IMG/VR virus record: IMGVR_UViG_3300036715_000350
Span: 1-34,960 of that record
Length of the DNA stretch: 34,960 bases
From: a virus
Direction: 5' to 3' (one strand)
Both the position numbers and the translations under genes were made by a program. Each line of letters starts with the position of its first letter. The first letter of the stretch is position 1. Positions 3,668-27,395 of this stretch are shown one piece after another. The notes under the pieces are model-generated. The model had not been told where the DNA came from. It saw only the letters and a program-made list of their open reading frames with translations, and ran no database searches.

Positions 3668-3835
3668 ATGAAACAAACAGAAAAACAAAATTTAATTGAT
3701 GCGGTGAATTTCATTTACAGCGTTAGCGCAAAAGCACCAGTTGAAAAGGCGGTACATGATAACGCTTTGAGTGCAGCTAAATTATTAGTTGATGAGTTAC
3801 AAAAGATAGAAGTAGAATTAGAAAAAGTAGATTAA
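3668..3835 (+). CDS. Small helical hypothetical protein
   Basis: A short frame of 55 codons from ATG 3668 to TAA 3833. The start follows an A-rich leader (AAAAAAAACATT), the usual start context in this genome, and the stop is 3 nt before the next ATG. The product is helical and charged, with a predicted amphipathic C-terminus (LLVDELQKIEVELEKVD). It fills the only gap between 3649 and 3839, which supports it being real. Function unknown; perhaps a small chaperone or accessory to the neighbouring virion proteins. Confidence 0.6.
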   Translation: MKQTEKQNLIDAVNFIYSVSAKAPVEKAVHDNALSAAKLLVDELQKIEVELEKVD

Positions 3836-11843: not shown

Positions 11844-14003
11844 ATGGATTATTTAGAGTTCTTAGAAAAAAAACAAAAGAAGCACATCGAAAGTGGCTTT
11901 GAAGTTAATGATAATGATTTAAACAATAACCTATTCCCGTTTCAAAGATTCATAGTTAAGCGCGCTTTGAAAGCTGGCAAGTATGCAATATTTGCCGATT
12001 GTGGTTTAGGTAAAACATTGATGCAATTAACATTTGCAGAGAATGTAGCAAAGCACACTAGTAAGCCTGTATTAATACTTGCACCTTTAGCAGTTAAAGG
12101 TCAAACGCTAAACGAGGCTAAAAGATTTGGAATAGATACTACTAACATAGTAATTCAAAACTATGAGCAACTAGATAATATTGATTCTAATATTTTTGGC
12201 GGTATCGTTTTAGATGAAAGTTCTATCCTTAAAAACTTTGAAGGTGAAACAAAAAAGAATATTATCGATAAGTTTAAAAACACACCTTACAAATTAGCTT
12301 GTACTGCAACACCTTCACCGAACGACCCGATGGAACTTGGAAATCATAGCGAGTTCTTAGATGTTATGGGTAGAAATGAAATGCTCGCAATGTACTTTGT
12401 TCACGATGGCGGAGAAACGGCAAAATGGAGGCTTAAAGGTCATGCGGTTAAAACATTTTATCAATTCATAGGAACGTGGGCGATAATGCTTAACAAGCCA
12501 CAGGATATAGGATTTACTATGGAAGGCTATAACTTGCCTACTCTTAATATTTTAGAGCGTAAAATAGTAACACCTAAACGCGATAACGGTCAGCTATTTA
12601 ATGATGCAATTATTTCAGCTACTAACTTTAATCAAGAGTTGAGGTTAACTAAGATTGAAAGAATGGAAGATGCTATATCATTAGTAAATAATAGCGATGA
12701 AAATTTTATTATCTGGATTAAGCAAAATGAAGAAGGCGAATACTTAAAGAAACTAATACCTGGTGCTGTCGAGGTGAAAGGTTCAGATAGTTCAGAGTAC
12801 AAAGAAAAGATGCTTTTAGGTTTTGCGAATAATGAATTCAGAGTTCTTATAACTAAAACTAAAATAGCCTCATTTGGTATGAACTATCAAAATTGCCGAA
12901 ATCAAATATTTGCTTCTTTAGATTTTAGCTTTGAAGGATTATACCAAGCAATAAGACGTTCTTATAGGTTCGGACAAAAGAATGAAGTTAATATTCATTT
13001 AATTACTACCGACACAATGGCAAACGTAAAACAATCAATAGATAACAAACAAAAACAATTTGAACTTATGCAAGACGAAATGAGCAAAGCGATTAACGCT
13101 AACTTAAACAACGAACTGATGAATATCGGTAATGTTGACACAACAGAAGAAACAAATGAATTCTATCACATTAAACGTGGCGACTGCATCCAATTAATTA
13201 AGGATGTGCCTAGTGAATCGGTAGGGTTAAGTGTATTTTCTCCACCGTTTGCTGAGCTTTACACCTATTCTAGCCATTTAGAGGATATGGGTAATAGTAA
13301 AGACTACAATGAATTTTTGACTCAATTTGGATTCTTGATAAAAGAATTATACAGAGTAATGCAAAGCGGTAGAAATGTTGCAGTTCATTGCATGGATTTA
13401 CCTATTCAAAAAGGGAAAGAAGGCTTCATTGGGTTGCGTGACTTTAGCGGATTACTTTTAAAAGCATTTGGTGAAGCTGGATTTATTTATCATTCACGAA
13501 TTACTATTTGGAAAGATCCAGTTGTAGAAATGCAAAGAACTAAGGCGCTTGGTTTACTTCATAAGCAAGTAAAAAAAGATAGCACTATGAGCCGCGTGGG
13601 TATTCCTGACTATGTTATGGTATTTAGAAAAGATGGTGAAAGAACTAATCCAGTAACAAACACTAATATACCAGTTGATTTGTGGCAAAAAATAGCTTCG
13701 CCAGTGTGGATGGATATTGATTATGGTAATACTTTACAAGGTTATAGAAATGGTCGTGAAGAAAATGATGAAAAGCATATTTGCCCGTTACAATTAGATA
13801 CTATTGAGCGTTTGATATTGCTTTATTCTAACGAAGGTGATACGGTACTTACTCCATTTATGGGTATTGGTAGCGAGGTTTTTCAAGCTGTTAAAATGAA
13901 TAGAAAGGCTATTGGTTTTGAACTTAAAGAAAGCTACTACCAACAAGCTAAAAAGAATGTGCAAAGCGCGGTATTGGAAAAGTCACAATCAACACTATTT
14001 TAA
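11844..14003 (+). CDS. SNF2-like helicase fused to a DNA methyltransferase
   Basis: A 719-residue two-part enzyme. The N-terminal part is a superfamily 2 SNF2-type translocase: Walker A 'ADCGLGKT' (51-58), motif II 'LDESS' (123-127), motif III 'CTATPSP' (153-159) and motif VI 'QAIRRSYRFGQ' (368-378). The C-terminal part is a beta-class N6/N4 methylase: catalytic 'SPPF' (466-469) first, then SAM motif I 'TPFMGIGS' (670-677) and 'GFELKESYY'. The ATG at 11844 is chosen for its A-rich leader. The methylase would modify phage DNA while the motor moves along it; this is inferred. No nuclease domain is visible, so it is not a complete restriction enzyme. Confidence 0.9.
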   Translation: MDYLEFLEKKQKKHIESGFEVNDNDLNNNLFPFQRFIVKRALKAGKYAIFADCGLGKTLMQLTFAENVAKHTSKPVLILAPLAVKGQTLNEAKRFGIDTTNIVIQNYEQLDNIDSNIFGGIVLDESSILKNFEGETKKNIIDKFKNTPYKLACTATPSPNDPMELGNHSEFLDVMGRNEMLAMYFVHDGGETAKWRLKGHAVKTFYQFIGTWAIMLNKPQDIGFTMEGYNLPTLNILERKIVTPKRDNGQLFNDAIISATNFNQELRLTKIERMEDAISLVNNSDENFIIWIKQNEEGEYLKKLIPGAVEVKGSDSSEYKEKMLLGFANNEFRVLITKTKIASFGMNYQNCRNQIFASLDFSFEGLYQAIRRSYRFGQKNEVNIHLITTDTMANVKQSIDNKQKQFELMQDEMSKAINANLNNELMNIGNVDTTEETNEFYHIKRGDCIQLIKDVPSESVGLSVFSPPFAELYTYSSHLEDMGNSKDYNEFLTQFGFLIKELYRVMQSGRNVAVHCMDLPIQKGKEGFIGLRDFSGLLLKAFGEAGFIYHSRITIWKDPVVEMQRTKALGLLHKQVKKDSTMSRVGIPDYVMVFRKDGERTNPVTNTNIPVDLWQKIASPVWMDIDYGNTLQGYRNGREENDEKHICPLQLDTIERLILLYSNEGDTVLTPFMGIGSEVFQAVKMNRKAIGFELKESYYQQAKKNVQSAVLEKSQSTLF

Positions 14004-14004
14004 T

Positions 14005-14280
14005 ATGCAAGAACTTATCAAACGTAACTACGATTCGATTGTGAATCGTGGTTACATAACATCAGGCACGACAGATTTAGAGTTTATTTGTAAAATTGAG
14101 GAGGAAGTAGAAGAGGCAATTTATGAATCATTGCTTCATCGAAAAGGTAAAGAAAACAATCTACGCGAAGAGTTAGCCGATGTTATTTTAACGTGCCTTA
14201 ATTACGCTCATCACTTCGGTATTGACATCGAAAAAGAACTACAAAGAAAGATTGAGAAAAACGAAAAGCGAAAGGATTAA
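14005..14280 (+). CDS. MazG-like nucleotide pyrophosphohydrolase
   Basis: A protein of 91 residues from ATG 14005, 1 nt after the helicase stop. It has the all-alpha MazG pattern: 'IEEEVEEAIYE' (metal-binding Glu cluster), 'LREELADVILTCLNYAHHFG' (ELADV motif) and a final 'IDIEKELQRKIEKNEKR'. Such enzymes hydrolyse NTPs/dNTPs to the monophosphate; phage forms may adjust nucleotide pools or alarmone levels. Substrate not determinable. It is the last gene before the structured leader. Confidence 0.8.
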   Translation: MQELIKRNYDSIVNRGYITSGTTDLEFICKIEEEVEEAIYESLLHRKGKENNLREELADVILTCLNYAHHFGIDIEKELQRKIEKNEKRKD

Positions 14281-14284
14281 TTTG

Positions 14285-14292
14285 TATATTTG
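14285..14292 (+). promoter_or_regulatory. Promoter -7 box before the structured leader
   Basis: A perfect TATATTTG just after the MazG-like gene. No good -33 TTTG stands at the right distance, so it may need an activator. Transcription would begin near 14299, at the foot of the structured leader. Confidence 0.5.
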
Positions 14293-14298
14293 TGCATC

Positions 14299-14416
14299 TC
14301 TTAGCGGCTAAGTACGAAAATCACTAAGATATTTTAAAACAGCTTAATCGGGCAGCAACTATAAAGGACTTCGTACTCCTGTCGCGGTTGCTCCCGAAGC
14401 GGCTTATATTATTAAT
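14299..14416 (+). ncRNA. Structured 5' leader, candidate pseudoknot/switch RNA
   Basis: About 118 non-coding bases before ATG 14417. Stem 1: AGTACGAA (14311-14318) with TTCGTACT (14370-14377), 8 perfect pairs. Stem 2: CGGG(C)AGCAAC (14349-14359) with GTTGCTCCCG (14387-14396), 10 pairs with one bulged C, extended by GCTT (14342-14345) with AAGC (14397-14400). The 5' arm of stem 2 lies inside the loop of stem 1 and its 3' arm lies outside, so the stems interlock. A short hairpin CTTAG-CGG-CTAAG (14300-14312) overlaps the foot of stem 1 by two bases. It is either an H-type pseudoknot or two alternative folds. There is no U-run, so it is not a simple terminator, and I recognise no known riboswitch or ribozyme. 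Confidence 0.6.
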
Positions 14417-15229
14417 ATGGCTAAAGAACTACCTTATTTTAAATTCTTTTGCTCTGAATGGAGTGATGGAGATATTACATTGGAGGATTACGAAACTCAG
14501 GGACTTTTTATAAACATTTGTGCTTACTATTGGAGTAATGAATGTATTTTAGAAATTTCAAAACTTAAAAAGAGATTTAGAAATGATATTGCATTAATTG
14601 ATTTATTAATCAAAAACAATATACTAAAAACAACAGATGAGTTTATTGTAATTAACTTCTTAGATGAGCAGAAAAACGACAGAAAGTTGAAATCGATGAC
14701 TAATAAAGACAACGGAAGTAAAGGAGGTAGACCAAAAACCCAAGCGCAAACCGAAAATAACCCAATCGGTTTTAATTCGCTAACCGAAACGAAAGCGAAT
14801 CAAAAGGCAATAAGAGAAGAGAAGAGAAGAGAAGAGAAGAATTTAAAAAAGGATTTTTCCGATGAAGTAGTTGAATTAGGCAAATACGTTTTCAAAGATG
14901 AATTTTCAGTTAACCGAGCAATCACAACTTACTCGACTTCACTTACAAACCTAAAAGAATCATTTCTAAATTTCTTGATGTCGGAAAAATACCACGAAAA
15001 AGAACTTAACGAACTCGCAATGGATAAAATGAGTAAACACTTTTTCAGATGGCTACTAACACATCAACCCGAAAAGGTGAGTAAAGATTACAATTCACTA
15101 ATGGAAGGAAAGCACGGTGAAGATTACCATGTTTGTATTACTCCAGTTTCAGAAGAAAGAGTACAAGAAATGATTCAAGAAGGTTGGGTACAAACACCAC
15201 AAGGAATGGTATTAAGATTAAAAAAATGA
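14417..15229 (+). CDS. Replication initiator/organizer-like protein (DUF1376/DUF4373-type N-terminus)
   Basis: A 270-residue protein. The N-terminal 100 residues ('PYFKFFCSEWSDGDITLEDY', 'GLFINICAYYW') match the winged-helix start of phage replisome-organizer proteins. A basic linker follows ('NKDNGSKGGRPKT', then IREEKRREEKN) encoded by an AAGAG repeat (14812-14840), and then a C-terminal helical domain. Its stop overlaps the ATG of the DnaB-type helicase (ATGA), the usual initiator/loader and helicase pairing. It would recognise the origin and help load the helicase. The structured leader precedes it. Confidence 0.7.
   Translation: MAKELPYFKFFCSEWSDGDITLEDYETQGLFINICAYYWSNECILEISKLKKRFRNDIALIDLLIKNNILKTTDEFIVINFLDEQKNDRKLKSMTNKDNGSKGGRPKTQAQTENNPIGFNSLTETKANQKAIREEKRREEKNLKKDFSDEVVELGKYVFKDEFSVNRAITTYSTSLTNLKESFLNFLMSEKYHEKELNELAMDKMSKHFFRWLLTHQPEKVSKDYNSLMEGKHGEDYHVCITPVSEERVQEMIQEGWVQTPQGMVLRLKK
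14812..14840 (+). repeat. Pentanucleotide tandem repeat AAGAG inside the replication gene
   Basis: Five full AAGAG units plus a partial sixth, within the linker of the initiator-like protein. The unit is not a multiple of three, so gain or loss of one unit would shift the frame and truncate the protein. Confidence 0.85.
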
Positions 15230-16203
15230 AAGATAATTTTTTTTGTGACCCATCCGAAGCATTAGATGTTTTGGATAATATTCGAGAAGGAAGAGTTAAA
15301 ATGGGTTTAGGTATTGGCGATGAAGTTAGCGACCAGTATTTAAGATACAAGCAAGGTCAATTTGTAATGATTAACGGGGCTGATAATACGGGGAAAACAA
15401 CTTGGATTCTTTGGTACTTCGTTGTTTTAGCTTTGAAGCATAAAATAACCTTTGATATATTTTCAGCTGAAAATTCTATTGCATCATTGAAACGCGATAT
15501 AATGCAATTCATGACTGGAAAAGAACTAAGGAAGTTGAGCGATATTGAATATCGCAGAGCGTTCGATGAAATGAATTTTTACTTTAAATTCATTCGCAAC
15601 GACAAGACTTACACCGTTCAAGAGATATTGAAGATTAGCGCACAAAGCCCTAACAAAGTGTTATTGATTGACCCGTGGAACTCACTAAGAGGCAACGGAG
15701 GAAACAAGCACGAAGAAGATTACGACTCATGCGGCGATATTCGCGTTTTCTGCAATACAACGAAAAAAAGCGTGTATGTTAATGCTCACTTGGTAACGGA
15801 GGCAGCAAGAAAGAAGTTTCCTAAAGACCACGAATACGAAGGTCATCAAATGCCACCATCAAAAAGTGATACAGAGGGCGGTCAAAAGTTTGCTAATCGT
15901 TGCGACGACTTTATAACCATTCACCGCATGACGCAATTTGAAGCGCGTAAGAACTTCACAGAGGTTCACGTAAGAAAGGTTAAGGAAACCATTACTGGTG
16001 GAGGGGTTACTCAATTAGACCGACCGATAATATTTAAGTTTTGGAACTACACTAGGTTTGAAGTCGGAGAACGTAATCCAATAGCAAACGAAACAGGACA
16101 AGGTACACCAGTACAACAAACACTAACAACATTAAACCACGCAAAAAATGAAGGATTTGAAAAAGAAAGCGTTCAAGAAGATGCAGACCATTTCCCGTTC
16201 TAA
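15226..16203 (+). CDS. DnaB/Twinkle-type replicative helicase
   Basis: A 325-residue RecA-fold ATPase: Walker A 'GADNTGKTT' (51-59), 'IFSAENS' after strand 2, Walker B 'VLLIDPW' (145-151) and the sensor-like 'VNAHL' (185-189). It lacks the DnaB N-terminal domain and a primase domain, so it is a helicase core only, as in several small phages. ATG 15226 overlaps the previous stop; an upstream in-frame ATG at 15133 would overlap the neighbour by 97 nt and is rejected. Likely loaded by the protein encoded just before it. No phage DNA polymerase or primase was seen, so host replication enzymes are presumably used. Confidence 0.8.
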   Translation: MKDNFFCDPSEALDVLDNIREGRVKMGLGIGDEVSDQYLRYKQGQFVMINGADNTGKTTWILWYFVVLALKHKITFDIFSAENSIASLKRDIMQFMTGKELRKLSDIEYRRAFDEMNFYFKFIRNDKTYTVQEILKISAQSPNKVLLIDPWNSLRGNGGNKHEEDYDSCGDIRVFCNTTKKSVYVNAHLVTEAARKKFPKDHEYEGHQMPPSKSDTEGGQKFANRCDDFITIHRMTQFEARKNFTEVHVRKVKETITGGGVTQLDRPIIFKFWNYTRFEVGERNPIANETGQGTPVQQTLTTLNHAKNEGFEKESVQEDADHFPF

Positions 16204-26465: not shown

Positions 26466-27395
26466 ATGGCAAATTGTTGCAGTCTTACAGTCGCAAATAC
26501 AGGGTTTGGCTGTACCCCCATTATGGAAGTAGTGGAGAAATTTATTGAGGTTTCATACTTTAAAGGAGATGGAACTATCAATGAAATTGATTTGACAGAT
26601 ACGTTCAACTTGGCTTATTTTACCGCGCTGGTGAATGATGCCGACGAAACGCTTCGCTGGTATCCTTTGCCATTCGTGAAGAATATGGTAGATGAGCGCG
26701 CGGATTCTGACTTTGAAAGTTTCGACGATAAAACGAGAATTGAGCGTCAAGTTGGTATTCGTTCAGTTAAGACAATCATTACTACTTTAGGAAATAACGC
26801 TGGTGCGGTATCACCTCAAATGGTTGGTAAGATTAACGATAAGAAATGTAAAGTTTCGGGATTGTTTGGTGTTACTAAATCTAAGCAATTAGTTGGCGAA
26901 ATGATTAACGATGGTTATTTAGCGCCGATTAGAATTGATAACGGCTCTTTAATGGCTATTTTAGTTAAGACTGGCTCAGGTGCAATCACGCAGAAAATTA
27001 ACTTAGGCTTCGACTGGCATATTGATGTGCAAGATGAAAGACTTCGTACTTTGGAAGCAGACGAAATGACGACAGATATTAGCTTGTTAAATGGCTTATT
27101 AGATGTTACTTCTGTATATTCTGCAATCGGTCAAACTTCGTTTAAAGCAACGCTTAAAACTATTTTCGGAACATTCGTTAATCCTTTATTAGTTGAAGGC
27201 TTAGTAGCTGGCGACATGGCATTGTACAACATTACTGATAGCGCAAACGTAACTATCACAAGTGCTGTTGAAGCGCCTGATGGAACGTACACAATTAGTT
27301 ATGCTACTCAAACGGTTGCAGACGTGTTGAGGTTGACCATCACTAAAGATGGTTTTGATTTTACAGCTGTTACAGCTAACACTATCACAATATAA
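26466..27395 (+). CDS. Major tail tube protein
   Basis: A 309-residue protein with an N-terminal Cys-containing start ('ANCCSLTVANTGFGC'), a central tube-type domain, and a C-terminal beta domain of about 70 residues ('NVTITSAVEAPDGTYTISYA') that looks Ig-like and would project from the tail surface. It has its own promoter and a terminator behind it, as expected for an abundant product before the tape measure genes. The family is inferred from position, size and domain plan. Confidence 0.7.
   Translation: MANCCSLTVANTGFGCTPIMEVVEKFIEVSYFKGDGTINEIDLTDTFNLAYFTALVNDADETLRWYPLPFVKNMVDERADSDFESFDDKTRIERQVGIRSVKTIITTLGNNAGAVSPQMVGKINDKKCKVSGLFGVTKSKQLVGEMINDGYLAPIRIDNGSLMAILVKTGSGAITQKINLGFDWHIDVQDERLRTLEADEMTTDISLLNGLLDVTSVYSAIGQTSFKATLKTIFGTFVNPLLVEGLVAGDMALYNITDSANVTITSAVEAPDGTYTISYATQTVADVLRLTITKDGFDFTAVTANTITI

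Follow-up and report, generated by a model that had tools for sequence, protein, structure and literature searches.

Kissing-hairpin leader RNAs upstream of replication initiator and homing endonuclease genes in phages of Flavobacteriia

The non-coding leader of a probable replication initiator gene in the virus record IMGVR_UViG_3300036715_000350 (IMG/VR; 34,960 bases, hereafter the window) forms, with near certainty, a kissing-hairpin complex in which two hairpins grip each other by a loop-loop helix. It is best assigned to a large family of such leaders that phages of Flavobacteriia carry. The leader is located between a MazG-like gene that ends at 14280 and the ATG of the next gene at 14417. 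The box at its 5' end, which we take to be a Bacteroidota -7 box of the TAnnTTTG type, was correctly reported as perfect in the original prediction. Hairpin A starts 6 nt 3' of this box, near the presumed transcript start. The parts of the leader and the two genes that follow are listed in Table 1.

Table 1 Features of the leader and the downstream genes in the window
Feature	Position	Strand	Basis or details
Promoter -7 box, TATATTTG	14285..14292	+	Sequence
Hairpin A, TCTTAG (14299-14304) / CTAAGA (14324-14329), loop holds 1a	14299..14329	+	Predicted fold, homologues
Kissing arm 1a, AGTACGAA	14311..14318	+	8/8 complementary to 1b
Kissing arm 1b, TTCGTACT, apical loop of hairpin B	14370..14377	+	8/8 complementary to 1a
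Hairpin B	14341..14404	+	Fold energy -25.7 kcal/mol; two-sided changes in relatives
Hairpin B outer helix, AGCT/GGCT	14341-14344/14401-14404	+	
Hairpin B helix, CGGG/CCCG	14349-14352/14393-14396	+	
Hairpin B helix, AGCAAC/GTTGCT	14354-14359/14387-14392	+	
Hairpin B inner helix, AGG/CCT, flanks 1b	14365-14367/14378-14380	+	
Gene adjoining the leader, probable replication initiator / primosomal protein, 270 aa	14417..15229	+	PHROG matches
Primase/helicase-type gene	15229-16203		phrog_18375 DNA primase/helicase, 1.4e-32

The minimum-energy fold of the leader consists of hairpins A and B (z = -2.4). Both long pairings of the original prediction are found where it had placed them, namely that of 1a with 1b and that of CGGG-c-AGCAAC (14349-14359) with GTTGCTCCCG (14387-14396), the latter with 10 pairs and one bulge. 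Its GCTT/AAGC extension of the second stem is better read as the outer AGCT/GGCT helix. Two elements were missed, hairpin A, which encloses 1a, and the AGG/CCT helix. The interleaved order of the arms (1a, 2a, 1b, 2b) is real. Since the loop of hairpin A holds 1a and that of hairpin B holds 1b, it amounts to a loop-loop contact that is compatible with both hairpins, and the earlier idea of mutually exclusive stems acting as a switch falls away. A classical H-type pseudoknot is likewise not the best description, as 1a is found inside the loop of this third helix in the window family and in most relatives; exceptions are L104, L107 and L081, which have no clear hairpin A. Two hairpins, complementary loops and compensatory changes are all observed.

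Taken alone, the window leader is suggestive and not conclusive, because 8 of 1000 dinucleotide shuffles of its sequence yield a set of hairpin A, kiss and hairpin B that is equally good. The pairing had been called unlikely by chance, which holds only moderately for the single copy, and the decisive support is comparative. Similarly, the GC content does exceed that of the whole window (41% vs 37%), an unremarkable difference at the 81st percentile of 124-nt windows. The general scanner for kissing elements is noisy for single weak elements, as these shuffles of the window leader show; the conclusions therefore rest on homologues and on a blind motif test. The only further copy of the 1a/1b pair in the window is a chance 8-mer at 27043, with no convincing second element, and no DNA similarity of the locus to sequenced phages was found. 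In agreement with the original prediction, which recognised no riboswitch, ribozyme or tRNA, no Rfam 15 family matches the window at the gathering threshold, and a relaxed scan of the leader gave chance-level matches only. A coding origin of the leader was considered and rejected: the upstream open frame has 49 codons in L033 and 23 in the window, and the peptides differ.

Relatives of the downstream protein were taken from IMG/VR and genome contigs. MAFFT put the arms of diverse members out of register, so that pairs were counted in close sets only. The window family comprises four aligned sequences: the window leader, the nearly identical RNA of L034, which precedes a different gene, and the diverged relatives L033 and L035. 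Here, 93.4% of the cells are paired (33-52% with a slid partner), and two-sided changes are seen in 8 of 31 pairs. Seven of these pairs belong to hairpin B and one to the kiss, which is paired in 100% of its cells; L033 and L035 lack one further kissing pair, which both arms have lost together. L034 and L033 retain hairpin A, and L035 has it with one mismatch (95.8% of cells paired). The compensatory changes in both stems that the original prediction had named as its check were thus found.

Two further sets show the same fold. In the eight leaders of the L044 family, 6 of 31 pairs are changed on both sides and the kissing cells are again 100% paired. Stem B is nearly constant in this family (two-sided changes in 1 of 16 pairs), and changes are concentrated in the kiss, with 5 of 7 pairs compared to 1 of 19 in stem B plus the inner helix (Fisher p = 0.002). 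G.U pairs are present in stem B on the sense strand, which fits an RNA. The set from phages morran, hattifnatt, snusmum and FCV-1 has 99.1% of all cells and 100% of the kissing cells paired, with two-sided changes in 12 of 28 pairs, five of them among the 8 kissing pairs. The excess of kissing-pair change in the L044 set is absent from this set and from the window set. Missing in two of three sets, it does not prove that the kiss is hypervariable in general.

In more distant relatives, the arrangement is kept with unrelated letters; it adjoins the initiator gene or is separated from it by a small ORF. Across the family, the 1a-1b helix mostly spans 7-9 bp and an A/T-rich linker separates the hairpins. 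Whole-locus scans gave 22 plus-strand sites with a score of at least 62, compared with 0 after shuffling of the loci. The 8 sites on the minus strand for the most part mirror these elements. Cellulophaga phage Nekkels_1 (L116, 3344-3480) has two possible kisses, ATTGGAA/TTCCAAT and GTCTAAC/GTTAGAC, that may be a double contact.

For the blind test, viral contigs were searched with the hairpin B internal-loop motif of one subtype, AGUAGAG-(1b)-CUCGAA, a query that ignores the kiss. At least 128 distinct matches were found; among the matches listed, 70 have a flanking helix B and 58 do not. An upstream complement of the own loop with a score of at least 16 is present in 69 of the 70 listed elements with helix B, compared with 9.7% for swapped loops and 4 of the 58 listed matches without helix B; many of these contigs are interrelated and the counts are not fully independent events. 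The loops themselves run freely, with at least 31 different 1a sequences and at least 27 distinct 7-bp kissing pairs in the motif subtype, with three to five pair types per position, among the matches listed. Recurrent letters are restricted to the AGUA/GAA internal loop of this one subtype. In a curated set of 50 elements, own loops match at a score of at least 16 in 47, and swapped loops in 10%. As the curated set was partly picked for the kiss, the blind test weighs more.

The reading as a structured leader RNA behind a promoter box is upheld by the fold and by the position of the box across the family. TAnnTTTG is found directly 5' of 38 of the 50 curated elements. Among the motif-found matches listed, it lies at most 60 nt 5' of 1a in 58 of 70 elements, compared with 4.8% of random stretches. 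Hairpin A of the relatives starts at a median of 5 nt after the box. At the other end, a run of at least four T residues follows hairpin B in 60 of the 70 motif-found elements and in none of the 58 matches without helix B (both among the matches listed), as well as in 34 of 49 curated elements compared with a background of 7.5%. Members with a T-run have the layout of an attenuator, with a terminator-like hairpin and T-run between promoter and ORF. The T-run is missing in the window copy, L033, L035, L100 and L107, so termination cannot be the universal function.

The next ORF is located on the same strand, at a median of 12 nt past hairpin B in the motif-found elements listed. Replication initiators and freestanding homing endonucleases are its typical products. 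Among the 47 next ORFs of the motif-found matches listed, NUMOD4 and HNH_3 were each matched 14 times and NUMOD3 five times; further matches are to AP2, HNH, endonuclease VII and GIY-YIG models, and much of the remainder belongs to DUF6291, replisome organizer, primosomal and replication initiation families. Other next genes, read by eye, are Dam methylase-like, RNase H-like or small ORFs of unassigned function. In the window, the product of the adjoining gene matches phrog_29280 (unknown; 1.8e-24) and, weakly, the primosomal protein family phrog_9327 (3.4e-5), with no match in Pfam, and is by these similarities a probable replication initiator. The original prediction of a leader to an initiator gene is supported for the window, where the gene is a probable initiator, but the leader is not specific to that initiator, given the different next gene in L034 and the homing endonucleases elsewhere.

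A few genomes carry second copies. Their loops differ in the cases seen, and several precede endonuclease-like genes. In seven loci (L210, L231, L240, L206, L227, L239, L245), the homing endonuclease seems to form a unit with its promoter and kissing leader, inserted amid genes for recombination and replication. A short stretch similar to AGTTTATAGGTATCTTAAAACCTTTATTATTATGG is found just 3' of the element in L035 (around 3745-3780), L039, L057, L077, L099, L117 and L119, whose leaders differ. It forms a small AGGT/ACCT hairpin immediately 5' of the start codon and is possibly a separate translational control site.

The element is present in the Flavobacterium phages morran9-1, hattifnatt9-1, filifjonk9-1, snusmum6-1, mumin6-1, FCV-1 and elemoF, in the Cellulophaga phages phi19:1 and Nekkels_1, and in Olleya phage Harreka_1. 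The records of these ten isolates contain no RNA annotation at the element. Among 295 genomes of the host class, 31 matched the motif, and none of the checked loci has helix B and the kiss. Host-chromosome copies were rejected on this basis, and the element looks phage-specific because the host-class genomes gave only chance matches among the loci checked.

The reading we favour, held with as much doubt as conviction, is that of a cis-acting 5' leader that would gate the next gene via attenuation, start-site access or both. Fold, strand, promoter position, T-run and kinds of next gene come from sequence comparison; from these we infer attenuation and a read-through set by the kiss. The transcript would open with hairpin A presenting 1a in its loop, followed by the A/T-rich linker and by hairpin B, whose apical loop 1b would pair with 1a. 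A few nucleotides separate hairpin B from the start codon, and with the T-run of most relatives the hairpin looks like an intrinsic terminator directly before the ORF. RNA polymerase would have to pass this kissing-locked terminator, and the ribosome would have to load beside hairpin B at a crowded start codon. During transcription, the kiss can form while the 3' arm of hairpin B is still missing, and it could therefore determine how frequently the terminator is completed in time. The leader would most likely limit or time the next gene, typically one for a DNA-acting protein whose dose matters, such as a replication initiator or homing endonuclease. The window family lacks the T-run, and there the leader would act on access to the start site or on the stability of the mRNA; for the window copy and the other relatives without a T-run, such access or a protection of the mRNA is the more natural interpretation.

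In a rather unlikely alternative, the kissing complex is a stabiliser or translation element at the very 5' end that protects the mRNA from decay or positions the ribosome at a start codon, and the T-run is merely part of an A/T-rich start region. Hairpin A at the presumed 5' end, the short distance between hairpin B and the ORF and the existence of members without a T-run, including the window copy, are all consistent with it. The excess of T-runs over both controls, among the listed motif-found matches and in the curated set, goes beyond what start-region composition alone would give. It is improbable that the terminated leader of about 100 nt is a trans-acting small RNA that pairs with leaders carrying the same loops and would thereby exert copy control, exclude related phages or insulate elements from each other. 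Such a role would suit the strong loop-pair change in the L044 family and the different loops of two elements within one genome in the cases seen. However, the other two families lack this excess, random element pairs share 1a only 5% of the time, so that differing loops within a genome mean little, and every loop meets its own cis partner first. Moreover, mumin-type carriers are described as virulent, with lytic replication only according to Nilsson et al. (PMC7077304), and lysogenic immunity does not fit them. A related and equally doubtful idea is a self-recognition code, in which terminated RNAs would regulate only leaders with the same loops and the kiss would be a hypervariable barcode for initiators and endonucleases. 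If so, phages and freestanding homing endonucleases would compete or stay insulated via their loop pairs.

The original prediction had also suggested the sensing of a metabolite, protein or temperature. A structured leader directly before a gene would be expected of a riboswitch or thermosensor, but we consider this very unlikely: loop letters are not conserved, no candidate ligand-binding nucleotides are conserved while loops and stems vary freely as long as they pair (at least 27 distinct kissing pairs in one subtype, see above), and the next genes share no common metabolic pathway. Hardly any weight is given to a DNA-level element without an RNA role, such as an origin or protein-binding inverted repeats. 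The frequent location at the head of replication genes agrees with it, whereas the fixed order of promoter, T-run and next ORF on one strand, the tolerance of G.U pairs on the sense strand and the homing endonucleases behind many copies argue for an RNA.

Several known systems resemble parts of this leader. Intrinsic-terminator attenuators share the hairpin and T-run between promoter and first ORF that most members have. Here, in contrast, the loop of a 5' hairpin pairs with that of the terminator; neither a rival antiterminator stem nor a sensor can be made out, and the window copy has no T-run. The P4 CI RNA and the P1/P7 C4 antisense RNA are derived from phage leader regions with complementary segments before replication or antirepressor genes, as is the case here. 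Unlike in those systems, the partners are two hairpin loops within one RNA, with no third segment in the window, and several carriers are phages described as virulent; the P4 CI and P1 C4 family models have no Rfam match in the window or its relatives. Loop-loop pairing in a replication initiator leader is known from repZ of plasmid ColIb-P9, where a pseudoknot is formed. In the present case no antisense RNA was identified, endonucleases also follow the leader and the hosts are unrelated. In the T4 I-TevI mRNA, a single hairpin over the ribosome site restrains expression of the homing endonuclease. That RNA structure likewise stands at the start of such a gene, whereas the leader has two kissing hairpins 5' of the start codon. 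The phi29 packaging RNA also combines complementary loops with little sequence conservation; it differs from the family in the latter's mRNA-leader position, terminator-like end and intramolecular loop pairing of 7-9 bp, and the phi29-type model has no Rfam match in the window or its relatives.

In one subtype, hairpin B carries AGUA 5' and GAA 3' of a 3-bp helix, which resembles the sarcin-ricin or bulged-G motif in letters and orientation. This internal loop is found below the kissing loop in L044, L048, L049, L067, L094 and L184 as well as in the motif-found set. It leads to a kissing loop and not to a tetraloop, and the window copy is without it. Kissing hairpins, terminator leaders and the AGUA/GAA loop are of known kinds, and their combination, the target genes and the free-running loops appear to be new. 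A literature search for kissing leaders, phage leader RNAs and endonuclease leaders, with subscription journals mostly outside its coverage, returned no description. Neither kissing loops nor endonucleases are mentioned in the main text of the 2010 structured-RNA catalogue (PMC2864571).

The leaders would constitute an uncatalogued and widespread RNA family of Flavobacteriia phages in which the fold is conserved and the sequence is not, which would account for sequence-led searches having missed it. One control module would be linked to two unrelated kinds of genes, replication initiators and mobile homing endonucleases, and would offer a concrete handle on the timing of DNA replication in phages of a little-studied host group. 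Cultured carriers, namely the Flavobacterium phages morran, hattifnatt, mumin and FCV-1, Cellulophaga phi19:1 and Olleya Harreka, allow direct tests.

Two observations concern the surrounding loci. Upstream of the leader, one plus-strand ORF of the window (11850-14003) matches Helicase_C, SNF2-related and ResIII models and a C-terminal N6_N4 DNA methylase, and corresponds to a helicase-methyltransferase fusion. Rfam scans of ten related loci gave a single match, outside the element, and relaxed scans of two elements stayed far below threshold. This match is the DUF805b RNA (RF02914; 52.1 bits, E 6.3e-12) on the plus strand of Flavobacterium phage morran9-1 (L119, 2300-2334), just 5' of a ParB-like gene.
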